A stretch of 64,000 nt of DNA from an uncultured Acetatifactor sp. (GTDB lineage Bacteria > Bacillota > Clostridia > Lachnospirales > Lachnospiraceae). The translations under genes and the position numbers were made by a program. The notes under the pieces are model-generated. The model saw only the letters and a program-made list of their open reading frames with translations, had not been told where the DNA came from and ran no database searches. Within the stretch, counting starts at the first letter, position 1. Each line of letters begins with the position of its first letter. Where the stretch lies: NCBI GenBank assembly GCA_947594835.1, contig CANQEH010000014.1:1-64000 (forward strand), given 5' to 3'. This document shows, one piece after another, positions 38,080 to 63,796 of this stretch.

Positions 38080-39198
38080 ATGAGCGAAAACACCATCAAA
38101 CTGATCCACTGTGCAGACCTGCATCTGGACGCCAGGATGACCTCCCAGCTGCCCAGGGAAAAGGCCAGGGAGCGGCGGGCGGAGCTTCTGCACACTTTCG
38201 ACAGGATGCTGGACTGGGCGCAGGAGCACCGGGTGGATGCCATTCTCATCGCCGGAGACTTGTTTGACACGAAAAACATCTCTGCCGCGGCAAAAAACAC
38301 TGTGCGGGAGGGGATTCTGGCCCATCCGGACATCCAGTTTTTTTATCTGCGGGGCAATCATGACGCGGACGGATTTCTGGGGAGCCTGGAGGAACTGCCG
38401 GGGAATTTAAAACTGTTTGAGGCCCAGCAGTGGCTCACCTATCTGCTGGCCCAGGGCAGAGTTGCCGTCACGGGGGCGGAGCTTTGCGGGGAAACGAAGG
38501 AGCGGCTTTTCTCCTCCCTGGCGCTGGACGGGGATCGTTTCAACATTGTGCTCCTCCACGGACAGGAGGCGGACAGTGCGCCCCGGGAGGGCGCGGAGGT
38601 CATCCCCTTGAGACTGTTAAAAAACAGAGGGATAGACTACCTGGCCCTGGGACATATCCACGCCTACAAGTCAGCGCCCCTGGACGCCAGGGGCGTATAC
38701 TGCTATCCGGGCTGTCTGGAGGGCAGAGGGTTTGACGAGTGCGGCCTTCACGGCTTTGTCTATCTGGAGATCGACCCGGAGCAGAAAACCTGCCGAAAGG
38801 AGTTTGTACCCTTTGCGAGACGGCAGATCTGCCGCCTGGAGGTGGATGTGACAGGCTGTGCCTCAGGGGCGCAGATTGCAGCCCTGGTACGGGAGCGGCT
38901 GGAAAAGGAGGGGCTTTCCCCGGAGAGCCTGGTGAAGATCTGTCTGGTGGGACAGGTGGACATCTCCTGTGAAAAAAACCTGGATTTTCTGGAAAAGAAG
39001 CTGGAGCCGGAGTTTTACTGCGTCAGGCTCTCCGACGAGACCACCCTGCAGGTGGACTATGGCAGGTTTGCCCTGGACGCATCCTTAAAAGGGGAGTTCG
39101 TGCGGCTGGTAGAACAGGCGCAGGACTTAAGCGCCGGGGAGAAGGCGGAGGTGATCCGCTGCGGCATCCGGGCGCTCTCCGGGGAGGAACCGATGTAA
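38080..39198 (+). CDS. yhaO: Metallophosphoesterase, SbcD/Mre11-like nuclease, YhaO type
   Basis: 372 residues. The calcineurin-like core is complete: HCADLHLDA, DAILIAGDLFDTKN, FYLRGNHDADGF and later LLHGQEADS and LALGHIHAYKS supply the metal-binding Asp, His and Asn residues of SbcD/Mre11-type enzymes. The C-terminal capping region (about 260-372) is present. It probably works with the SMC-like ATPase encoded 16 bases downstream, as in the B. subtilis yhaO-yhaN pair, to process DNA ends. It is not SbcD in the strict sense because the partner is YhaN rather than SbcC. Confidence 0.92.
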   Translation: MSENTIKLIHCADLHLDARMTSQLPREKARERRAELLHTFDRMLDWAQEHRVDAILIAGDLFDTKNISAAAKNTVREGILAHPDIQFFYLRGNHDADGFLGSLEELPGNLKLFEAQQWLTYLLAQGRVAVTGAELCGETKERLFSSLALDGDRFNIVLLHGQEADSAPREGAEVIPLRLLKNRGIDYLALGHIHAYKSAPLDARGVYCYPGCLEGRGFDECGLHGFVYLEIDPEQKTCRKEFVPFARRQICRLEVDVTGCASGAQIAALVRERLEKEGLSPESLVKICLVGQVDISCEKNLDFLEKKLEPEFYCVRLSDETTLQVDYGRFALDASLKGEFVRLVEQAQDLSAGEKAEVIRCGIRALSGEEPM

Positions 39199-39214
39199 AG
39201 GAAAGGGGGCTGCC

Positions 39215-41911
39215 ATGCGTCTGCTTCGCTGCCACATTGAAAATTTTGGAAAACTGTCGGATCTGACGCTTGATTTTGAACAGGGCCTGAACGTGATCTG
39301 CCGGGAGAACGGCTGGGGGAAAAGCACGCTTGCGGCCTTTCTCAAGGTGATGCTCTACGGCTTTGGGGAGGAGAAGTCCCGGGATGAGTTCAAAAATGAG
39401 AGAAAGCGCTTTTTCCCCTGGCAGGGGGGCGTCTACGGGGGCAGCCTGGAATTTGAGGCGGGGGGCCGCCGCTATGTGGTAAACCGCACCTTCGGGGCGA
39501 AGGAGCGGGAGGACCGCTTCAGCCTGCGGGAGGCGGACACCAACTTGGAATCCAATGATTACTCCGTGCGTCTGGGGGAGGAATTGTTCTCCCTGGACTG
39601 CAGCTCCTTCTGCCGCACGGTCTTTGTGTCCCAGAGCGACTGCGAGACCGTTTCCACCGACGCGGTCAATGCAAAGATCGGGAATCTGGCGGAGGCCACC
39701 GACGACATCAACAATTTTGAGAGCGCCAACCAGCGCTTTCTCAATTTATTGAACCAGTTAAGCCCCACCCGTAAGACCGGCGCCCTCTATCGGAAAAAGG
39801 AGGAACTGACAAGGCTCCAGATGGAGGTCCGGGCCGGGGAGGGCGTTTTGCGCGCCCTGGAGGAAGCAGGCGGGCGTCTTGCGGAAAAGCAGATGCGCCA
39901 GAGGCAGATGCAGGAGGAGCAGGCCCTGCTTCTGCAAAAGCAGAAGGAGGCAGGGGAGAGGAAGGAGCTTCTGGCAAAACGGGAAGCGTATGAGGCGCTC
40001 TGCCGCTCCATGGGGGAGAGGAAAGAGGCATATGAAAGGGAGCGCGCCTATTTCCCCGGAGAGCTTCCTGAGAAGGAGAAGCTGCGGGAACAGATTGGGG
40101 AAAGCCTGGAGCTTGCGGCTGTGAAGGAATCCGTCAGGTTAAGCGGGATGACGCCGGAGGAGTCCAGGGAGTATGCGGCGCTTCGTCTTGTGTTTGCCCA
40201 GGGAATGCCGGAGAAAAACAGGATACAGGAATGGGAAGAAAAGGCCGCAAACCTTCAGGCACAAAGGATCGCGCTGGCGGAGAGCAGGCCGGATCCCCAG
40301 GATGAGGAGCGGTTTCTCTCCTACCAGGCCAGATTTGCGGAAGGGATGCCCCAGCCGGAGGAAGTGGACCGGCTGATGGGGGACTGGAAGCGCTGTCTGG
40401 AAAAGAAAAGCGTGCTGGAGCAGAAGCGCATCCATTTTCTCACCCTGCAGGAACTGGACAGGGGAAAAGAGCAGGGGAAGCCGGAGAAGAAGGACACAGG
40501 CCGGGGAATGTTCCTGATCCTGGCGGGAGCGCTGTTTCTCTTTGCCGGGATTTGTCTGGCAGGCCTCCGGATAGGCGGCCCTTTACCGGGGATTCTCCTG
40601 GCCGGGTTTGGGGCGGGCTGCCTGGCGGTAAGATGCGCCGGAAGCTTCCTGCAAAAAGGCGGGAAATCCTCCCCGCCCCAGGAGGAAGCGCCGAGAGAGC
40701 GGACGACCCTGGAGCGGTTTGAACAGGAGATCCTTCAGGACGAAGCCTTTATCCAAAAGACGCAGGGACGGACGGAAGAGTTTCTGGAGAGGTATGGGAT
40801 CCTCTGGGAGCGGGAGGAGGATATTCTGGACTGCCTCTATGGCTTCAAAGGCCAGATACGGGATTATATCACTTTGTCCAATCGAAGGCGGCTGGCAGAT
40901 ACCCGGCAGATGGAGGAGGAAGCCGGGCGGCTTGACCGGGAATTGTCCCAGTTTCTTTCCGGTTATTTTCCGGGGACGCCCATCCCGGAGACGGAGTATC
41001 CTGCCAGGCTCCATGAGCTGAAGGAGATGGCAGCTTCCTGCGAAAGACTTCAGAAAAAGGAAAAACAGTACGCCCGGTCGATGCAGGAGTACCGCAGCCG
41101 CCTGGCCGCACTGGAGACCTTTGTGAGGAGCCTGGGCATGGAGCCGGAGCCGGAGGGGGAGGATCTGCAGGCGAAGCTCCTTCAGGCGCAGAGCCATCTG
41201 CAGAGCCTGGAGGCCAGCAGGCGGGAATATGAGGACGCAAGGGCAAAGAAGGAAGCCTTTGAGGAGAGGGAGCCCATGGAGGCGATCCTGGGGGAAAGCC
41301 CCGGAGAGGGGCCGGAGGAATCCGCCGGGTATGCCGCCCGGATCGAGGAACTGTCCAGAATGCTGGAGCAGATGTACCAGGCCGTGGCGGAGGAGAACAG
41401 GCAGATTCTCTCCCTGCGGGAGGAGGCCGATCGGATCGAGGAGGAGAAAAAAGCCCTGGAAGTCTTGCAGGAGGAATATCAGCGGCAGCTGGAGCGATAC
41501 CGCCTGTTACAAAAGTCCAGGGAGCTGTTAGAGCAGGCAAAAATTTCATTTACGGCCAGGTACACAGCCCCCATCCGAAAGAGCCTGGGAAACTACTTTA
41601 CCCTCTTATCCGGGGAGAGCGGGGAGCGGCTCCATGTGGACGCCAACACGAAGGTGACCCTGGACGAGCAGGGGATGCAGCGGGAGCCCAGATTTTTCAG
41701 CGCAGGCTACCGGGATCTTCTGGGCATCTGCATGAGGATGGCGCTGGTGGACGCCATGTACAAAGAGGAGAAGCCTTTTGTCATCTTTGACGACCCCTTT
41801 GCCAATCTGGACGGGGAAAAGCTGTCCGGCGCAGGGGAAGTGCTAAAGCAGATCGGGGAGCAGTACCAGGTATTGTATTTCACCTGCCATGAGAGCAGAT
41901 GCTGGTGTTGA
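39215..41911 (+). CDS. yhaN: SMC/Rad50-like ATPase, YhaN type
   Basis: 898 residues. The N-terminal ATPase half starts MRLLRCHIENFGKLSDLTLD with Walker A ENGWGKSTLAAFL (about 29-41). Long coiled-coil arms lie at about 170-430 and 480-750. Between them are two hydrophobic stretches (about 432-470, FLILAGALFLFAGICLAG) that replace the zinc hook of Rad50, as in YhaN relatives, so the arms may be membrane-tethered. The C-terminal ATPase half has the signature region RFFSAGYRDLLGICMRMAL and Walker B FVIFDDPFANLD (about 855-866). It presumably powers the YhaO nuclease on DNA ends. The final Cys-rich residues (HESRCWC) are unremarkable. Confidence 0.9.
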   Translation: MRLLRCHIENFGKLSDLTLDFEQGLNVICRENGWGKSTLAAFLKVMLYGFGEEKSRDEFKNERKRFFPWQGGVYGGSLEFEAGGRRYVVNRTFGAKEREDRFSLREADTNLESNDYSVRLGEELFSLDCSSFCRTVFVSQSDCETVSTDAVNAKIGNLAEATDDINNFESANQRFLNLLNQLSPTRKTGALYRKKEELTRLQMEVRAGEGVLRALEEAGGRLAEKQMRQRQMQEEQALLLQKQKEAGERKELLAKREAYEALCRSMGERKEAYERERAYFPGELPEKEKLREQIGESLELAAVKESVRLSGMTPEESREYAALRLVFAQGMPEKNRIQEWEEKAANLQAQRIALAESRPDPQDEERFLSYQARFAEGMPQPEEVDRLMGDWKRCLEKKSVLEQKRIHFLTLQELDRGKEQGKPEKKDTGRGMFLILAGALFLFAGICLAGLRIGGPLPGILLAGFGAGCLAVRCAGSFLQKGGKSSPPQEEAPRERTTLERFEQEILQDEAFIQKTQGRTEEFLERYGILWEREEDILDCLYGFKGQIRDYITLSNRRRLADTRQMEEEAGRLDRELSQFLSGYFPGTPIPETEYPARLHELKEMAASCERLQKKEKQYARSMQEYRSRLAALETFVRSLGMEPEPEGEDLQAKLLQAQSHLQSLEASRREYEDARAKKEAFEEREPMEAILGESPGEGPEESAGYAARIEELSRMLEQMYQAVAEENRQILSLREEADRIEEEKKALEVLQEEYQRQLERYRLLQKSRELLEQAKISFTARYTAPIRKSLGNYFTLLSGESGERLHVDANTKVTLDEQGMQREPRFFSAGYRDLLGICMRMALVDAMYKEEKPFVIFDDPFANLDGEKLSGAGEVLKQIGEQYQVLYFTCHESRCWC

Positions 41912-51801: not shown

Positions 51802-51870
51802 AAAATTAGGTGAAAACTGACTTTTTTTAGTTTTTTGCCGGGATCCTTGCTTGGAGGGAATGCGAAAGAG

Positions 51871-53604
51871 ATGTTGGAAAAACGTGTCATGGGATATGGC
51901 AGGAAGAAGCGCCTGGGAGACCTTCTGGTGGAGGCTGGCTCCATCACCCAGGAGCAGCTGGCGCAGGCGCTGGCAGCCCAGAAGGAAGACAAAAAAGGTT
52001 CCAGGCTGGGCGACGTGCTGGTGGATTTAAATTTCGTGACCGAGCAACAGATCGTAGACGCCCTGCAGAAGCAGCTTGGCTATCAGGGGGTGACCCTGGC
52101 CAGGGAGCGGGTGGGTGAGGAAGTGACCCGCCTCATGGACGAGACCCTGCTTCGCCGGTACAACCTGATGCCCTTTGGCTTCAGCGAGAAAAATCCGAAT
52201 ATCTTAAAGGTCGCCATGAGCGATCCCCTGGACATCAGGGCCATAGACGATATCTCCATCATCACCGGGTTTCAGGTAGAGGTGTATGTGACCACCCAGA
52301 AGGACGTGGCCGCCGCCATTGACCGCTACTACGGGAATGTGGAGGCCATGAAAGTGGCCCAGCAGTACACCAGGGAGCGGGAGGAGTTCAACAGGGAGCG
52401 CCAGGTCGTGGAAGAGACGGACGACGCGGCCTTAAACAACGCCCCCATCGTCAGGCTGGTGCGCCAGGTGGTGGAGCAGGCGGTGCGCAAGAGGGCCAGC
52501 GATATCCACATCGAGCCCATGGACAGCAAGCTGCGCATCCGCTACCGGGTGGACGGCGTCCTGCAGGAGGGGATGCTCCACGAGATCACCCTTCACCCGG
52601 CCATGATCGCCCGCATCAAGATCGTCAGCGGACTGGATATCTCCGAGAAGAGAAAGCCCCAGGACGGCAGGGCGACGTACGTTGTGGACGGCCAGCAGTA
52701 CGATATCCGCGTCTCCCTCCTGCCCACGGTCTACGGAGAGAAATGCGTTCTGCGTCTGACCCACAAAAAGGCCCTTACCCGGGACAAAAGGGAGCTCGGC
52801 TTTCCGCCCCGGGAGCTGGAAAAATTTGAAAAGATACTGAGCCATCCAAACGGGATTATCCTGGTGACCGGGCCCACCGGAAGCGGTAAGTCCACCACCC
52901 TCTACACCGCCTTAAGCGAGTTAAACACCGAGGGCGTGAACATCATCACCGTGGAAGACCCGGTGGAAGCGGACATTCCCGGCATCAACCAGGTACAGGT
53001 CAACGAAAAGGCGGGGCTTACTTTTGCAAACGCCCTCCGCTCCATTTTGAGGCAGGATCCCGATATCATTATGATCGGGGAGATCCGCGACCAGGAGACG
53101 GCGGAGATCGCTGTAAAGGCGTCCATCACAGGACATCTGGTAGTCAGCACCCTGCACACCAACAGCGCCGCCAGCACCGTTACCCGTCTGGCGGACATGG
53201 GGGTGGAAAATTATCTGATCGCGGATTCCGTCGTGGGGGTCATCGCCCAGCGCCTGCTGCGCCGGGTCTGCCCCGACTGCCACACCATGAAAGAGGCGGA
53301 CGAATTTGACCTGGAGACGCTGGGGCAGCCAAAGAGGGAGACGCCCCTGATGATCCCCCAGGCCAGCCACCGGGACTGCTTGACCTGCGGCGGCTCCGGC
53401 TACCGCGGACGGATCGGCGTCTATGAGATTATGCCGGTGACCCCGGCCCTGAAACATTCGATCAGCCAGGGGGACAACTCCGATCAGATCGAAAAGCTGG
53501 CGGTGAAGGAGGGCATGACGACGCTGCGCAGGGCGGCCTCGGACTATGTGCTCCAGGGCATCACCACGGTGGAGGAAGTAAAGCGGATCACCTACGAAGA
53601 CTAG
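51871..53604 (+). CDS. pilB: Type IV pilus assembly ATPase PilB
   Basis: 577 residues from the ATG at 51871 (GGAGGG 12 bases upstream; an in-frame TTG at 51835 is less likely). The N-terminal T2SSE_N/MshEN-like domain (about 10-150) has KKRLGDLLVEAGSITQEQL. The motor domain shows Walker A GPTGSGKSTTLYTAL, an Asp-box VEDPVEADIPGINQVQVNE, Walker B DPDIIMIGEIRDQETAE and His-box GHLVVSTLHTNSA, with a zinc-binding CPDCHTM...CLTCGGSGYRGR. It drives pilus extension by cycling at the base of the machine. N-terminal MshEN-type domains in some PilB proteins bind c-di-GMP, but the key motif is not certain here. Confidence 0.95.
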   Translation: MLEKRVMGYGRKKRLGDLLVEAGSITQEQLAQALAAQKEDKKGSRLGDVLVDLNFVTEQQIVDALQKQLGYQGVTLARERVGEEVTRLMDETLLRRYNLMPFGFSEKNPNILKVAMSDPLDIRAIDDISIITGFQVEVYVTTQKDVAAAIDRYYGNVEAMKVAQQYTREREEFNRERQVVEETDDAALNNAPIVRLVRQVVEQAVRKRASDIHIEPMDSKLRIRYRVDGVLQEGMLHEITLHPAMIARIKIVSGLDISEKRKPQDGRATYVVDGQQYDIRVSLLPTVYGEKCVLRLTHKKALTRDKRELGFPPRELEKFEKILSHPNGIILVTGPTGSGKSTTLYTALSELNTEGVNIITVEDPVEADIPGINQVQVNEKAGLTFANALRSILRQDPDIIMIGEIRDQETAEIAVKASITGHLVVSTLHTNSAASTVTRLADMGVENYLIADSVVGVIAQRLLRRVCPDCHTMKEADEFDLETLGQPKRETPLMIPQASHRDCLTCGGSGYRGRIGVYEIMPVTPALKHSISQGDNSDQIEKLAVKEGMTTLRRAASDYVLQGITTVEEVKRITYED

Positions 53605-53701: not shown

Positions 53702-54916
53702 ATGGCAGGCGCCACAACCTTTAAATATGAGATCGTGGACGCGGGCGGCAAGCTGAGAAAGGGCACCATTGACTCGGTCAATCAGGATGCGGCCGCCGCG
53801 GCCTTAAAAGCCCAGGGAAATTTTGTGGTTTCCCTAAAACCCGCCAACGTCATGGAAAGGGATCTGGAGATCCATATCGGCAGGGCGGTGAAGCCCCGGG
53901 AACTCAGCATTTTCTGCAGGCAGTTCCAGAGCATCCTAAACGCAGGCGTCACTGTGATCGAGGCGCTGGGGATGCTGGGGGAGCAGACGGAAAACAAGGC
54001 GTTCCAGAAAGCCATCCTGAATGTGCGGGACGCGGTGCAGAAGGGCGAGACCCTGTCAAACGCCATGGCGGCTTACCCAAAGATTTTTCCCAACATCATG
54101 CTGCACATGGTGGCGGCGGGAGAGGCGTCGGGAAGCCTGGACGTGGCCTTCGACCGGATCGGGCGGCAGTTTGAAAAGGACGCACATCTGGCGGGGCTCG
54201 TGGGAAAGAGCATGATCTATCCGATTGTGCTCATCGTGGTCATCATCGCTGTGGTGGCCATCATGATGATTAAGATCGTGCCCACCTTTACGGCCACGTT
54301 TTCCCAGGTGGGGGCGGAGTTGCCGGCGATCACCAGGGCCGTCATGGGCGTCAGCGATTTTCTGGTGGGTTCCTGGTATTATTTTCTGGGCGGCATCGCA
54401 GTTTTCATCCTGCTGCTCAGGGAAGTGAAAAAGACCGAGTGGGGCGCTTTGTTCTTTGGGCGGCTGAGCTTAAGGCTCCCCCTCTTTGGCAGTCTGACCA
54501 TCAAGTCCGCCAGCGCAAACCTGGCCAGGACATTGAGCACATTGATGGCGGCTGGTATTTCTCTGATGGAGTCCGTCAAGCTGGTACAGCGGATCGTGAA
54601 AAACGCCGTCGTCCAGCAGGCTCTGAAGCAGGCGGAAAAGGATGTGACGGAAGGACGGACCCTGTCCGCGTCCCTGGAGGATACCGACGTCTTTCCCCCC
54701 ATGGTGTATCACATGATACGGATCGGGGAGGAGACCGGTAATCTGGAGAGTATGCTGGATAAGATCTCCGACTATTACGAGGAAGAGGTGGAGATGGCCA
54801 CCCAATCCCTGATGGCGGCGCTGGAACCGCTGCTCATCGTCATGATGGCGCTCATCGTGGTGCCCATCCTCTTAGCCATCATGACCCCGATGTTCAGCCT
54901 GTACAACAGCCTGTAA
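53702..54916 (+). CDS. pilC: Type IV pilus inner-membrane platform protein PilC
   Basis: 404 residues. GspF/PilC fold: ELSIFCRQFQSILNAGVTVI, NVRDAVQKGETLSNAM, and RIGRQFEKDAHLAGLVGKSM in the first half, with repeated platform structure in the second (ISLMESVKLVQRIVKNAVV, MVYHMIRIGEETGNLESMLD). Three membrane helices at about 165-195, 215-240 and 370-400. The start has GGAAGGTGAGGA before the ATG. It sits between PilB and the pilin and couples the motor to pilin extraction. Confidence 0.95.
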   Translation: MAGATTFKYEIVDAGGKLRKGTIDSVNQDAAAAALKAQGNFVVSLKPANVMERDLEIHIGRAVKPRELSIFCRQFQSILNAGVTVIEALGMLGEQTENKAFQKAILNVRDAVQKGETLSNAMAAYPKIFPNIMLHMVAAGEASGSLDVAFDRIGRQFEKDAHLAGLVGKSMIYPIVLIVVIIAVVAIMMIKIVPTFTATFSQVGAELPAITRAVMGVSDFLVGSWYYFLGGIAVFILLLREVKKTEWGALFFGRLSLRLPLFGSLTIKSASANLARTLSTLMAAGISLMESVKLVQRIVKNAVVQQALKQAEKDVTEGRTLSASLEDTDVFPPMVYHMIRIGEETGNLESMLDKISDYYEEEVEMATQSLMAALEPLLIVMMALIVVPILLAIMTPMFSLYNSL

Positions 54917-55001: not shown

Positions 55002-55529
55002 ATGAAACAGGAAAAGAAAATGCAAAAGAATCTCTTCCGCAAGGAAAATGGCAACAAGGGTTTCTCCCTGGTCGAGCTGATCATCGTGATGGCAATCATG
55101 GCGATCCTGACCGGTATCGTGGGGACACAGGTGGTGCCTTACATCAATAAGGCAAAGGAGGCGAAGGATCTGCAGATCATCAGTGCCTTTGGCACGGCGG
55201 CGGTTTCTGCTTACACGTTCCATGCAGAGGAGTTTCCCGCAGATAAAGTTACAATTGTCATAGGCACTGCAAACGGAGTTAGTGAATCAAGTAAAGGTGT
55301 AGAAACTACCTGGAAGAGTGAAATCAGCACATTGACAGGTTATACGGATATTAACGCAGTCAAGAATGCAATGACCTCTGATCTTAAGACTACTCTAACA
55401 GGTATTGCCATTGTGTTTGACCCCGCTGCTGGCACAATTACAGCAAATGCTTATGACGCCTCTGGGACAGTACTGGAGCCCGTGACGTCCTTTATCGGTG
55501 CCACTGCCACACCGGGCGCCGGCGGCTGA
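55002..55529 (+). CDS. pilA: Major type IV prepilin PilA with AT-rich exposed region
   Basis: 175 residues. A 20-residue leader MKQEKKMQKNLFRKENGNKG precedes the cleavage site, then FSLVELIIVMAIMAILTG with Glu5 in place and a hydrophobic spine. A charged segment (NKAKEAKDLQIISAF) continues the helix; the remaining 110 residues are Thr/Ser/Ala/Asp-rich and beta-like. The base composition changes: 55261-55440 is 76 of 180 GC (42%) against about 58% in neighbours, and codon use shifts with it. The variable globular part may have been replaced by recombination. AAAAGGAGAAGG gives a strong ribosome site. Order (after platform, before peptidase) suggests the major pilin. Confidence 0.92.
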   Translation: MKQEKKMQKNLFRKENGNKGFSLVELIIVMAIMAILTGIVGTQVVPYINKAKEAKDLQIISAFGTAAVSAYTFHAEEFPADKVTIVIGTANGVSESSKGVETTWKSEISTLTGYTDINAVKNAMTSDLKTTLTGIAIVFDPAAGTITANAYDASGTVLEPVTSFIGATATPGAGG

Positions 55530-55608: not shown

Positions 55609-56379
55609 ATGCCGGAACATTCCGCAATCCTGCTCTATCTGGTCATTTTCCTATACGGAATCCTCATCGGCAGTTTTGTGAATGTGTGCATCCTGCGGCT
55701 TCCGGCGGGGGAGAGCCTGCTTGCAGGCTCCCACTGCACGCGCTGCGGACACAGGCTTTCCTGGTATGACCTGTTTCCTCTGTTTTCTTACTTATGGCTC
55801 AAGGGCAGATGCCGGTACTGCGGGGCAGGGATCTCCCCCCAGTACCCTCTGGTGGAAGCGTTGAACGGGGCGCTGTATGTGACCGTTTTTCTGGCGGAGG
55901 GCGTCTGCCCAAAGAGCGTACTGCACTGTCTGATGGCGTCTGCCCTGCTGGTGATCAGCGTGGTGGACTGGCGGACGTTTGAGATCCCCCCGTCCTGCAG
56001 TCTGTTCCTGCTTCTCTTGGGGGTGGCGGGGACTGCGCTGGATCTGCCCCATCTGTGGGAACATCTGATCGGGCTGATCCTGGTGTCCGGCTTTTTGTAT
56101 TTGATCTACCTTTTCTCCAGCGGCAGGGCCGTGGGGGGAGGGGATGTGAAACTGATGGGGGCGGCGGGCCTTCTTCTGGGCTGGAAGCTGATTTTGCTCT
56201 CATTCTTTCTGGGATGTATCTTAGGCTCCGTGATCCATGTGATCCGCATGAAGGTAAGCAAGGCGGATCGGGTATTGGCCATGGGGCCTTATCTGGCGGC
56301 AGGAATTTTTATCTGCGCACTGTGGGGGGAACGTTTTCTGGACTGGTATCTGCGCCTTGCGCTGGGAAACGCTCCGTGA
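55609..56379 (+). CDS. pilD: Type IV prepilin peptidase PilD
   Basis: 256 residues, A24 aspartic membrane protease. Segments of the family are visible: GSFVNVCILRLP, a zinc-binding set CTRCGH and CRYCG (Cys43/46/68/71), catalytic Asp120 in SVVDWRTFEIP and Asp179 in GGGDVKLMGAAG. About seven membrane helices. It removes the leader from all prepilins in this cluster and methylates the new N-terminus. AAAGGAGGA precedes the ATG by about 11 bases. Confidence 0.95.
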   Translation: MPEHSAILLYLVIFLYGILIGSFVNVCILRLPAGESLLAGSHCTRCGHRLSWYDLFPLFSYLWLKGRCRYCGAGISPQYPLVEALNGALYVTVFLAEGVCPKSVLHCLMASALLVISVVDWRTFEIPPSCSLFLLLLGVAGTALDLPHLWEHLIGLILVSGFLYLIYLFSSGRAVGGGDVKLMGAAGLLLGWKLILLSFFLGCILGSVIHVIRMKVSKADRVLAMGPYLAAGIFICALWGERFLDWYLRLALGNAP

Positions 56380-56427: not shown

Positions 56428-58065
56428 ATGGCGAAGAAGGTTTTGACAATTGAACTGGGGGCATGGTGGACCAAGGTCGTCCTGACGGAGCCCTACAAGC
56501 GCTTCCCGCAGATTCTGGATCTGTTTTATTTCCGCACCCCGGAACACACGGTGGAGGACGGATTTGTACGGGATCGGGAGACGTTTCTGGCGGCCCTTCA
56601 GGAGGAGCTGGCAGCCCGCAGGATCACGGTGCGGGACGTGATCTTTATCATCAATTCCACCAAGGTCATCATCCGGGAAGTCTCCATCCCCTTTGTGAAG
56701 GATAGACTGCTTCCCAGCGTGGTGGAAACCCAGGCCAAAGAATTTTTCCCCATGGATATCTCCAACTATACCATTTCTTTCCGAAAGATGGAGGAGTACA
56801 CCGAGGAGGAGAAAAAGAAGCTGAAGCTTCTGCTGATCGCCGTCCCGGACAATCTCCTGAACAATTACAGGGCCCTGGCGGAAAACGGGGGCTTTTCGGT
56901 GGAATCCTACGAGTACATCGGAAACGCCGCGGTATCCTTTGCCAAGGCCAATTACGAGGGAAACAGCGTGCTGGTGCAGCTGGATGAAAACGAGACCATC
57001 ATCAGCATTATCGTCAATAAAAAGACAGTGTTCCAGCGGGTGGCCCCAAACGGCTACGGCTCCACCCTGGCCACCGTGCTGGATCACCCGGTTCTGGGGG
57101 CCCAGGACGAGTCCAGCGCCTATTATTTCCTCATCACCCACGACGTTTTGTTCAAGCGGCCCCGGGTGGTCAATTCCGGCTCCAGGGCGGACGAGAGGAA
57201 GCAGGCGGAGCTGGACAATGCGTACACGGAGATCCGGGACGCCTTGAGCTATCACATCCGGGTGGTGTACACCGCCATCGAATACTATTTAAACCAGTCC
57301 AAAAAAGAGTTCCACGGGGTGCTCAGGCTGGTGGGCGACGGCGCCAGGATCGCGGGCCTTGCCAAATTATTCGCGGATGAGATCAATCTGGAGGTAGCTC
57401 CCTCCGACGCCATCTCCCAGGTTCGCCTGTCAAAGCACATCTCCCTGGAGGAGGCTTCGGAGGTAGATTTTACCGCCGCCATCGGAGCAGGCATCTCTCC
57501 CCTGGGGATTAAACCCAGGGAACAGGCGGCCAGGGAGGCGAAAAAGAGCAACTTAAAGGCCGCTTATGTGCTGTTTGCCGGGTCGGCTGCGGCCAGCGTG
57601 GCGCTGGTGGCCACAGGGTGGCTGCGATACAGCCTGGCGGCTGCGGAGGCGGACAGACTGGAAACGCGGATCGGGGAGCTTTCCTATGTGCAGCAGATTT
57701 ACGACGAAAATGTGGCGGTGACGGGCAGGGCGGCGGAGTACAGCTCCTTTGACGCCCTGACAAAAAACGAAAACGAGAGATTTTTAGACCTTCTGGCCGG
57801 GCTGGAGGCCTGCCTGCCCCGGACGGTACAGGTGCAGAGCCTGTCGGTGGCAAATGGCATGATCACCATGAGCGTGACCAGCCCGGATAAGCTGACCACC
57901 GCCCAGATGCTCATGTATTTTTACGATATGCCGGTGCTGACCAATGTGGCCATCCCCTCCATGACGGAGGGAACCACCCCTTCCGGCAGGATCCAGTGGC
58001 AGTATTCCGTGAGCGCCGTCTATGCCCCGGAAGACCCGGAGCAGACAGGACAGGAGGCAATGTAA
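56428..58065 (+). CDS. pilM: PilM-PilN fusion protein
   Basis: 545 residues. The first 370 form a PilM-type actin-like domain (MAKKVLTIELGAWWTKVVLT, FIINSTKVIIREVSIPFV, VQLDENETIISIIVNKK). A membrane segment follows (about 376-403, SAAASVALVATGW), then a PilN-like periplasm-facing part (about 405-545; NERFLDLLAGLEACLPRTVQ, TAQMLMYFYDMPVLTNVAIP). In Gram-negatives pilM and pilN are separate genes; the fusion places the actin-like domain in the cytoplasm and the beta-rich part outside. With PilO it aligns the platform. No separate pilN is present, which supports the fusion reading. Confidence 0.85.
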   Translation: MAKKVLTIELGAWWTKVVLTEPYKRFPQILDLFYFRTPEHTVEDGFVRDRETFLAALQEELAARRITVRDVIFIINSTKVIIREVSIPFVKDRLLPSVVETQAKEFFPMDISNYTISFRKMEEYTEEEKKKLKLLLIAVPDNLLNNYRALAENGGFSVESYEYIGNAAVSFAKANYEGNSVLVQLDENETIISIIVNKKTVFQRVAPNGYGSTLATVLDHPVLGAQDESSAYYFLITHDVLFKRPRVVNSGSRADERKQAELDNAYTEIRDALSYHIRVVYTAIEYYLNQSKKEFHGVLRLVGDGARIAGLAKLFADEINLEVAPSDAISQVRLSKHISLEEASEVDFTAAIGAGISPLGIKPREQAAREAKKSNLKAAYVLFAGSAAASVALVATGWLRYSLAAAEADRLETRIGELSYVQQIYDENVAVTGRAAEYSSFDALTKNENERFLDLLAGLEACLPRTVQVQSLSVANGMITMSVTSPDKLTTAQMLMYFYDMPVLTNVAIPSMTEGTTPSGRIQWQYSVSAVYAPEDPEQTGQEAM

Positions 58066-60027: not shown

Positions 60028-62235
60028 ATGGGTAATTGGTCTTTAAGAGGACAGAACCGGGGCGCTTCCCTGGTGGCGGTGCTGATCGCAATGATCTTTG
60101 TGATGACCATCGGCGGCATTGTGATGAACGTGACGGTCACCAATATCCGGATGCGGGAGGCGGAAGCCTCCTCCAAACAGAATTTTTACAGCGCCGAGGA
60201 GATTTTAGACGAGATCACCTCCGGGCTGAACCGTTCCGCCTCCGAGGCCATGAGCCAGGCCTATGCGGGAATTATGGCGGATTACCGCAATATTGTGCAG
60301 TCCGGCTCGGATCTGCAGGCTGCCTTTGCCCGGGCCTATCTGGAAAAGCTGACGGCGGTGTTTCGGGATCCGGACAAAGACGTCAAGGTGACCACGGATC
60401 CGCTGGATGTGGGGAAAGTGGACTATATGTGGGGGCATTACGACCAGAAGGAGATGACCTCACGCTGGGCCCAGGTGCGGGGCTATGATCGTGTGGAAGA
60501 ACTGACAAACAGCCAGGACTACACCTATCTGGATCACGGGGAGGAGAATCTGACCTTTACCGCAGACTTTTCAAGCGGCCTTTTCACCCTGCAGAACGTG
60601 AAGGTTTCTTACCGGGACGACCGGGGCTATGCCACCACCATCTCCACGGATCTGGTGTTCCACACCCCGGCCTTAAATTTTCAAAAGTCCGGCAGCGTGA
60701 TGGAATATATGAAGTACGCCCTGATTGCTGACCAGGGCATCCGGGCGGCGGGCGTGGGCAATGTGAACGTAAAGGGCAGCGTCTACGCGGGAGCGGAGGG
60801 CATTGTCACGGATCACAACAGCCTGCCGGTGACCTTGACCGGAAGCAATATCGTTACCCGGGGGGACATCCAGGTACAGCCCGGCTCCCGGCTGGAAATC
60901 GGGACGGGAAGCGACAGGATCTGGGCGGAGAACATTGTCACCCTGCCCCTGTCCACCACGGAAGGCGGAGATCCCGCGTCCCTGTCCATCCATGGGAACT
61001 GCTATGTGGCGGACGATCTGACGATAAACGGATACAACAGCACGGTCACCCTCCGGGGCAGCTATTACGGCTATAATTTCAAGGAAAGCTACACTGGCTC
61101 TGCGTCGGGGGACGGAAGCTCTGATTTCTCCAGCGCCATGGTGCTCAACGGGGAAGGGGGAAGGCTGGATCTGTCCGGCCTGGATTACCTGATGCTGGCG
61201 GGCCGCACCTTCCTCTCCAAGGGAAGCGGTGCAAACAGCGATATCATGCTGGGGGAATCCCTGTCTGTCAGGACGAACCAGCTTGCGTACAGCGTGCCGG
61301 AGCGGTTTCTGGATCTGACGAAGGACCCGGTCGTCTTCCAGGTGGACGGGGCGGCGGGTTATGCCGCCTCTGCGGGCGTGGGCGACGTCTCCGCCTATGT
61401 GGATCTGGGAGACCCCGTGATGGCTTACCGCTATATGGAAAACGGCGTGGAGCGGAGAAGGTATTATCTGAAATTTAAGGGCGAGCAGGAGGCCAACCAG
61501 TTTTTTACGGACTATTGGAATGCAAACACAACCAGGCTTTCCGCCTACGGGGATCCCTATGCGGTGGCGATCCAGATAGACGGCGATACGCTTTTTAGCT
61601 TAAAGGGCGATATCCTGTACCGGAACGCGGGGGATTCCTTAAGAGAGCGGCCTGTGTCCATCTCCCCCGGGGACTGGGAGCCGGACGGCGTGTATTACGT
61701 CTATGCGGACAGACTGGCAGTCAATTATATGGCGCTGCAGATGTATCTGGAGGATTCCTACCAGGGGATCGATTCTTCCCGGATCCATTTCTATAAAAAC
61801 GGAAGCGCGGGAGAAATCGACAAGACCATGGACCCGCTGGTGGAAAACCTGATCTGGACAGAGGAGATCACGGAGAACAGATCTGTGACAAACGCGGAGG
61901 GGGATACGGTCAATATCGTGAAAAACGACGGAGCCGGCGCTTATCCGGTGACGGCGGGACGGGGCGTCGTGGTGGCCACCGGGGACGTGCAGGTGAAGGG
62001 AAATTTTACCGGCATGATTATCGCCGGGGGAACCATTCAATTTGACAACAATGTCACCGTCACGGCGGATGAGCTTCTGGTGGCGAAGCTGTTTGCCGAG
62101 GACGCTGCCCGGGAGGAGGGCCCTGTGTTTGCGAATCTCTTCAAGGGGTACAGCATAGCTGGGGGAAGCGTCGTGAGCACAGAGCAGACGAGCCAGTATC
62201 TGACGTATGAAAACTGGACCCGGACGGAGGAATGA
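60028..62235 (+). CDS. Very large prepilin-like protein without Glu5, PilX/GspK-like
   Basis: 735 residues. The N-terminus has NRG followed by ASLVAVLIAMIFVMTIGG: a prepilin-like leader, but position 5 after the cleavage site is Ala rather than Glu, as in GspK and PilX at the pilus tip. The ectodomain contains coiled-coil-like helix (about 50-80), a beta-helix-like region (about 225-370; GVGNVNVKGSVYAGAEG, IHGNCYVADDLTING) and bactofilin-like repeats near the end (VVVATGDVQVKGNFTGMII). It may be a tip adhesin. Ribosome site GCGAGGTG. Largest protein of the pilus cluster. Confidence 0.8.
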   Translation: MGNWSLRGQNRGASLVAVLIAMIFVMTIGGIVMNVTVTNIRMREAEASSKQNFYSAEEILDEITSGLNRSASEAMSQAYAGIMADYRNIVQSGSDLQAAFARAYLEKLTAVFRDPDKDVKVTTDPLDVGKVDYMWGHYDQKEMTSRWAQVRGYDRVEELTNSQDYTYLDHGEENLTFTADFSSGLFTLQNVKVSYRDDRGYATTISTDLVFHTPALNFQKSGSVMEYMKYALIADQGIRAAGVGNVNVKGSVYAGAEGIVTDHNSLPVTLTGSNIVTRGDIQVQPGSRLEIGTGSDRIWAENIVTLPLSTTEGGDPASLSIHGNCYVADDLTINGYNSTVTLRGSYYGYNFKESYTGSASGDGSSDFSSAMVLNGEGGRLDLSGLDYLMLAGRTFLSKGSGANSDIMLGESLSVRTNQLAYSVPERFLDLTKDPVVFQVDGAAGYAASAGVGDVSAYVDLGDPVMAYRYMENGVERRRYYLKFKGEQEANQFFTDYWNANTTRLSAYGDPYAVAIQIDGDTLFSLKGDILYRNAGDSLRERPVSISPGDWEPDGVYYVYADRLAVNYMALQMYLEDSYQGIDSSRIHFYKNGSAGEIDKTMDPLVENLIWTEEITENRSVTNAEGDTVNIVKNDGAGAYPVTAGRGVVVATGDVQVKGNFTGMIIAGGTIQFDNNVTVTADELLVAKLFAEDAAREEGPVFANLFKGYSIAGGSVVSTEQTSQYLTYENWTRTEE

Positions 62236-62919: not shown

Positions 62920-63192
62920 TAGAAGCAAAACAGGCAAAAAGAAGGATCGGGCAGTGGACATGGACGGCATCAGGGTTGGAAAAGAGGAGAGCAGGGTTTT
63001 GAGGGACAGCCGGGGGATGTCTCTGATTGAACTGCTCATTTCCGTCTCCATGGCCGCTATCATCCTGGGGGCGGCGGCGCTGTTCATCCGGCGGGCCATG
63101 CAGAGCTACGACACGGCTACCTCCGCCATCGACCTGCAGATGGAGGCCCATGTGCTGTTGGAGCAGATGGCCGCCTGGGTGATGGAGGGGAA

Positions 63193-63284
63193 CCGGGTGG
63201 AGGTGACCCCGGAGAATGTGTCTGGCGGGGCACGCTGTAAATGACCAGCACATTCTCCGGGTGGAGGTGACCCCGGAGAATGTG
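63193..63284 (+). repeat. 28-base direct repeats bounding the insertion
   Basis: 63193-63220 and 63257-63284 are identical over 28 bases (CCGGGTGGAGGTGACCCCGG then AGAATGTG), spaced 64 bases. Recombination or slippage between them removes exactly the interrupting segment. Confidence 0.95.
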
Positions 63285-63313
63285 CTGGTCATTTACAGCG
63301 TGCCCCGCCAGAC
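63220..63313. repeat. Perfect 42-base inverted repeat with 10-base loop
   Basis: 63220-63261 is the exact reverse complement of 63272-63313; the spacer 63262-63271 reads TGGAGGTGAC. It starts in GTCTGGCGGGGCACGCTG and would extrude as a long cruciform or hairpin. Confidence 0.95.
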
Positions 63314-63796
63314 CGGGGAAACCCTTCTGCCGGACGGGACGACCCTGGATGAAAACGGGCGCGTGGTTCCCACCACGGGCCCCAAGGTCACGGAGGCGCC
63401 CGCTTCCAAACGGCTGGTGTGGATGGAGGGGGATGGGCTTTACATGGTGGTGCGGCAGGGGATTGCGGACCCGGACAGCGATACGACCCCGAGGCCGGAC
63501 GTATCGGAAGCCGTCCGGGAGAACTGTATCAGCCAGTATATGGCCGCGTTTCAACCTGCCTGGGATCCAGATCGGGGGCTTTTGAGCCTGGAGGTTCAGA
63601 TGCAGGAGGGAAAACAGGAGTACGCCATCCGGGATGAGATCAAGATGCGAAACAGCGCAAGTTCCCCCGCCCCGTCTTCCGCCCCGTAGGGAGCAGGGCC
63701 CAAACCCGCAGGGGAAGACTGGACGGATCGAAGTATTTAGCCGAAATAGATATGACAGATGGTTTGCCGTCTGATACGGCAGAAATGGGGCAGCGT

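Follow-up and report, generated by a model that had tools for sequence, protein, structure and literature searches.

The minor prepilin gene close to the right-hand end of the window (the whole stretch of DNA analysed, 64,000 nt) is divided between two reading frames by a 64-nt insertion that forms part of a perfect inverted repeat. The question is whether this division arose by mutation, serves as a reversible switch of the pilus or was introduced in the course of sequencing. The following features were determined at the locus.

62999-63244, plus strand: 5' part of the minor prepilin gene, with TTG start, GAGGAG box and N-terminal methylation motif
63258-63689, plus strand: 3' part of the prepilin gene (C-terminal domain), recognised by its match to the joined protein (E 7e-93) and the orthologue alignment
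63193-63220, plus strand: direct repeat copy 1, 28 nt, containing the ancestral quasi-palindrome
63193-63197 and 63208-63212, plus strand: ancestral quasi-palindrome CCGGG/CCCGG with a loop of 10 nt
63220-63261, plus strand: left arm of the inverted repeat (fold-back copy), 42 nt, 100% complementary to the right arm
63221-63284, plus strand: 64-nt insertion, of which the first 36 nt repeat the coding sequence further downstream in reverse complement and the other 28 nt are the second repeat copy
63257-63284, plus strand: direct repeat copy 2, 28 nt, 100% identical to copy 1
63262-63271, no strand assigned: hairpin loop TGGAGGTGAC, 10 nt, identical to the loop of the ancestral 5-bp hairpin
63272-63313, plus strand: right arm of the inverted repeat (original coding sequence), 42 nt, continuing the reading frame of the relatives

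Architecture of the interrupted prepilin gene

The first-pass annotation had described a perfect 42-nt inverted repeat with a 10-nt loop, perfect 28-nt direct repeats and an insertion in which the coding sequence that follows recurs in reverse complement, and the determined coordinates agree with this on all three points. The two direct-repeat copies are spaced by 64 nt. The predicted folding energy of the structure as single-stranded DNA was -64.2 kcal/mol, compared with a mean of -18.9 kcal/mol for shuffled sequences (z = -16.6). The genome is a 2.76-Mb draft of 47 contigs with 97% completeness; its closest named matches are uncultured Acetatifactor MAGs and Roseburia faecis, which places it in the Lachnospiraceae. 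An 854-kb sample of it (about 31%) was scanned for inverted repeats. The next-longest perfect short-loop inverted repeat in this sample was 28 nt, and none of the other inverted repeats was accompanied by a junction direct repeat of at least 12 nt. The z-score of the fold and the lack of comparable repeats in the 854 kb place the structure far beyond chance. A transcription terminator was rejected, as the structure lies inside the coding sequence and no run of T follows it. A MITE, another mobile element or a member of a repeat family was rejected as well, since both arms consist of coding sequence of the prepilin gene itself and the sole match of the insert in the genome was the locus itself.

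The 5' part of the gene terminates at an aberrant TGA (63242-63244) within the insertion and the C-terminal part continues in a different frame, as had been annotated. When 63221-63284 are removed, the joined frame is open for the expected 221 codons from ATG 62960. From TTG 62999, situated 8 nt behind GAGGAG, it comprises 208 codons with the product start MRDSRGMSLIELL. The TTG is more likely to be the real start, because the proteins of the relatives begin there (MRKDNRGLTLIEL and similar). A match to PF07963, the prepilin methylation motif, was obtained over the cut-off at the N-terminus, which together with the setting in a pilus operon identifies the product as a type IV minor prepilin. 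The predicted truncated product has 81 residues from the TTG or 94 from the ATG. It would contain the N-terminal helix and the native sequence through ...TPENV, followed by SGGARCK, with the C-terminal domain gone. The split gene is thus probably a null or pseudogene allele. The following pilus genes precede it.

51835-53604: PilB-like ATPase
53702-54916: PilC-like protein
55002-55529: pilin
55609-56379: prepilin-peptidase-like protein, as read from the sequence
56428-58065: PilM/PilN-like protein
58847 and 62289: positions of further prepilins

Orthologues and the ancestral state

The comparison with orthologues that had been proposed in the first-pass annotation was carried out with eight distinct sequences from genus mates and Roseburia (L005, L006, L007, L008, L019, L020, L021 and L022; L004 is the same contig as L021). 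An intact frame was found in every one of these related Lachnospiraceae, with no interruption across the insertion site. The site itself corresponds to a length-variable turn between ...EGNRVEV and VLVIY.... This turn is about as short as in the joined frame in four of the eight (L005, L006, L007, L008), 13-15 residues longer in three (L019, L020, L021) and intermediate in L022. Neither direct repeats nor an insert were present at the site in the eight orthologues, and within or close to the gene their short-loop inverted repeats did not exceed 11 nt. Because all the orthologues are uninterrupted and some have the short spacing of the joined gene, the comparison, which rests on orthologues of 33-47% identity, indicates that the insert is derived and that the site was empty in the ancestor. 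A search of viral contigs for a same-species counterpart of the locus returned nothing.

Expression of the insert, by frameshifting or by re-initiation at ATG 63216, could in principle yield a functional longer pilin or a two-part protein, and the two frames do overlap around 63216-63244. However, there is no convincing slippery heptamer and no well-placed ribosome-binding site, the re-initiated product would lack the prepilin leader and the membrane helix, and no relative has such an arrangement. The chance that the insert is expressed in this way is therefore close to nil.

Reconstruction of a probable template switch

It is probable that a single recent template switch, associated with the quasi-palindrome, inserted the 64 bases into the minor prepilin gene and produced the null allele. 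A replication template switch had been among the first explanations offered, and it is supported by an exact two-switch reconstruction, a hairpin primer already available in the ancestor and near-homology at the return point. The letters of the sequence, the intact orthologues and the exactness of the reconstruction are direct observations, while the identity of the nascent strand is proposed from primer logic only, and the origin in vivo and the loss of function are likewise presumed.

In the reconstruction, the coordinates follow the empty-site numbering with the left repeat copy kept. The path leaves the plus strand after 63219/63220, takes the reverse complement of ancestral 63213-63249 and resumes at 63193, which reproduces the observed sequence with zero mismatches. 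The switch points have 12 equivalent placements, and the limits of the copied stretch are ambiguous by the 5-nt CCGGG. The primer stem CCGGG/CCCGG was present in the empty site with the same 10-nt loop as in the present hairpin. For comparison, 5-bp stems of G and C only, with loops of 3-20, begin at 0.26% of the positions in the window.

According to the proposed mechanism, the nascent minus strand, growing from right to left, would arrive at 63193, where its 3' end CCCGG would fold back over 10 nt onto the CCGGG freshly made opposite 63208-63212. The folded end would then be extended by 37 nt on its own strand, with 63213-63249 being copied. Finally, it would leave the hairpin and resume on the plus-strand template at 63219/63220, where the near-homology CCAG(A)C would assist the return, and about 28 nt would thereby be copied a second time. 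These steps would yield the 42-nt hairpin, perfect and set between the 28-nt direct repeats, together with the premature TGA and the frameshift.

The exact homology at the return point 63219/63220 is 1 nt, and CCAG(A)C pairs with CCAGC over 5 nt with one bulged base. Of the 85 positions compared around it, 63218 alone has a longer one-bulge match (6 nt), so that the return point ranks second, and random pairs reach a 5-nt one-bulge match in 0.9% of trials. This near-homology is suggestive of a template switch and is not a proof.

The order of the switch points decides whether intra-strand self-copying is possible (PMC7954356). By this rule, self-copying is excluded when the event is read from left to right, because the departure point then comes before the copied stretch. 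The reading from right to left, i.e. minus-strand synthesis, permits an intra-strand switch because the copied stretch is behind the 3' end. The GC skew of the window is +0.125 (plus strand G-rich). If the plus strand has the leading-strand sense, as this composition would suggest, the nascent minus strand would be the lagging one. Quasi-palindrome mutations in E. coli, where template switching at such sites is an established mechanism, show strand biases of their own (PMC7202029).

Origin of the insertion in the cell or in vitro

The flawless repeats are equally expected from a recent mutation and from an artefact. In the latter case, a fold-back chimera primed by the hairpin in vitro, during whole-genome amplification or library preparation, would have become the consensus. 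Library-preparation chimeras of this kind are documented at inverted repeats and share the hairpin priming (PMC10908179), and PMC6218980 describes them for whole-genome amplification, after which such chimeras are a well-known product. The genome, moreover, is a draft in 47 contigs. In contrast, the described library chimeras appear as soft-clipped reads with one junction and at low frequency (PMC10908179), whereas the present structure has two junctions, the second being required for the return to the original template, and constitutes the consensus sequence. Amplification artefacts should also be scattered, yet no second case was seen in 854 kb. A genome-wide fold-back problem, caused by amplified DNA or hypermutation, was rejected on the same sample, which contained no other arm of at least 30 nt and no other direct-repeat signature.

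The first-pass annotation had also considered a chimeric assembly. Clean reads are an unlikely source of it: the homologies at the junctions, 1 and 5 nt, do not reach the length of any k-mer used in assembly, and a de Bruijn graph would not be expected to create the path from them. As such homologies would be unable to join k-mer paths, molecules with both junctions must presumably have been sequenced. What stands of this explanation is a chimera of the sequenced molecule itself, formed during amplification or library preparation, to which we assign a minor but real chance.

Possible reversibility of the insertion

The insert could also be regarded as part of an on/off contingency locus, in which its deletion between the 28-nt repeats would occur at a useful frequency, restore the pilin and be selected for. 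Perfect 28-nt direct repeats 64 nt apart around a strong hairpin are a favourable substrate for slippage, and loss of the insert by this route, i.e. reversion, may occur, being physically possible. All the remaining pilus genes that were checked have open frames, the split prepilin being the sole lesion seen in the system, and PilT is encoded elsewhere in the genome, outside the pilus operon. However, the insert was gained in a rare, single event, which leaves the cycle with no return path at a similar rate. The sequence is unique in the genome, with no recombinase site or repeat family. Known pilin phase-variation systems use conserved repeats or recombinases; here, too, a DNA change would switch a pilus gene between on and off, but the prepilin insert is neither conserved nor recurrent. 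As no orthologue has repeats of either orientation at the site and the longest short-loop inverted repeat among them is 11 nt, a conserved switch was rejected, and the reversible control suggested in the first-pass annotation found no support as a system. A contingency locus is therefore very improbable.

Tolerance of such a hairpin raises the matter of the hairpin nuclease SbcCD. Neither SbcC nor SbcD exceeded its curated cut-off in this genome, so hairpins may be tolerated. The SbcC cut-off was reached in only one of 14 control genomes, which makes the absence of SbcC weak evidence. The best SbcD match lies in the window beside a second gene:

38080-39198: SbcD/Mre11-like phosphoesterase, more distant and below the SbcD cut-off
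39215-41911: large SMC-like ATPase, 898 aa, adjoining the phosphoesterase

We take this pair (38080-41911) to resemble YhaO/YhaN, and the genome seems to be without canonical SbcCD, which would fit with hairpin tolerance. The closed relative G006 likewise has no SbcD over the cut-off, yet no comparable palindrome was found in the 400 kb scanned. The members of the genus are split, some with and some without SbcD over the cut-off.

In a lineage with no recognisable SbcCD, the template-switch hairpin and its 28-nt repeats might form a metastable allele, a switch created by the copying error in a single step and reverting often enough to give a mixed piliated and non-piliated population. This is improbable too, if slightly less so than a selected contingency locus. 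The literature yielded nothing directly usable on slippage rates across palindromes.

Comparison with known systems

The nearest class to the proposed template switch is that of quasi-palindrome mutations, known from the lacZ QP reporters and the thyA hotspot of E. coli, rIIB of phage T4 and CYC1 of yeast. In these, copying of the nascent strand starts from a short imperfect inverted repeat, which thereby becomes a longer perfect one; the process is intramolecular and returns to the original template (PMC7202029). The prepilin locus likewise combines an imperfect ancestral inverted repeat, a more perfect derived one and one switch out with one back. The change here would go far beyond the few-base corrections scored in the reporters, since the 5-bp stem would have been lengthened to 42 bp, 64 nt gained on balance and 28 nt duplicated. 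The four-point model of short-range template switches in primates also applies, as the fragments L->1, 2->3 reversed and 4->R explain every base. In contrast to the primate cases, the present one is a single event in a bacterial gene, known from one assembled sequence. No directly usable survey of template switches in bacterial genomes was found in the literature.

The insert thus exemplifies a type of mutation already described, or is a sequencing artefact; it is notable for its length and clarity and is not a new genetic switch. If real, it provides a long and clean natural case, from an uncharacterised gut Lachnospiraceae, of a mutation class for which most work has been done in E. coli reporters, yeast and primates. 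The two switch points are readable, and the strong hairpin that resulted could revert. For annotation, it is a warning that a split gene can stem from a fold-back copy, whether made in vivo or in vitro.

Further features of the pilus region and the genome

The pilus operon also encodes a 735-aa protein (60028-62235), which has a hydrophobic N-terminus like a PilX-type pilin and no match in Pfam or NCBIfam. Downstream of the prepilin, a 1704-aa protein with no NCBIfam match starts at 63752 and extends through 64000 and beyond (L023:8752-13866); it contains a long stretch of Pro/Ser/Thr/Gly repeats. Elsewhere in the same genome, at L033:11019-11309, direct and inverted repeats of 24-30 nt (CCCGGCGCTGCCAGGGGGCTTTTC) are clustered and resemble a small repeat family.
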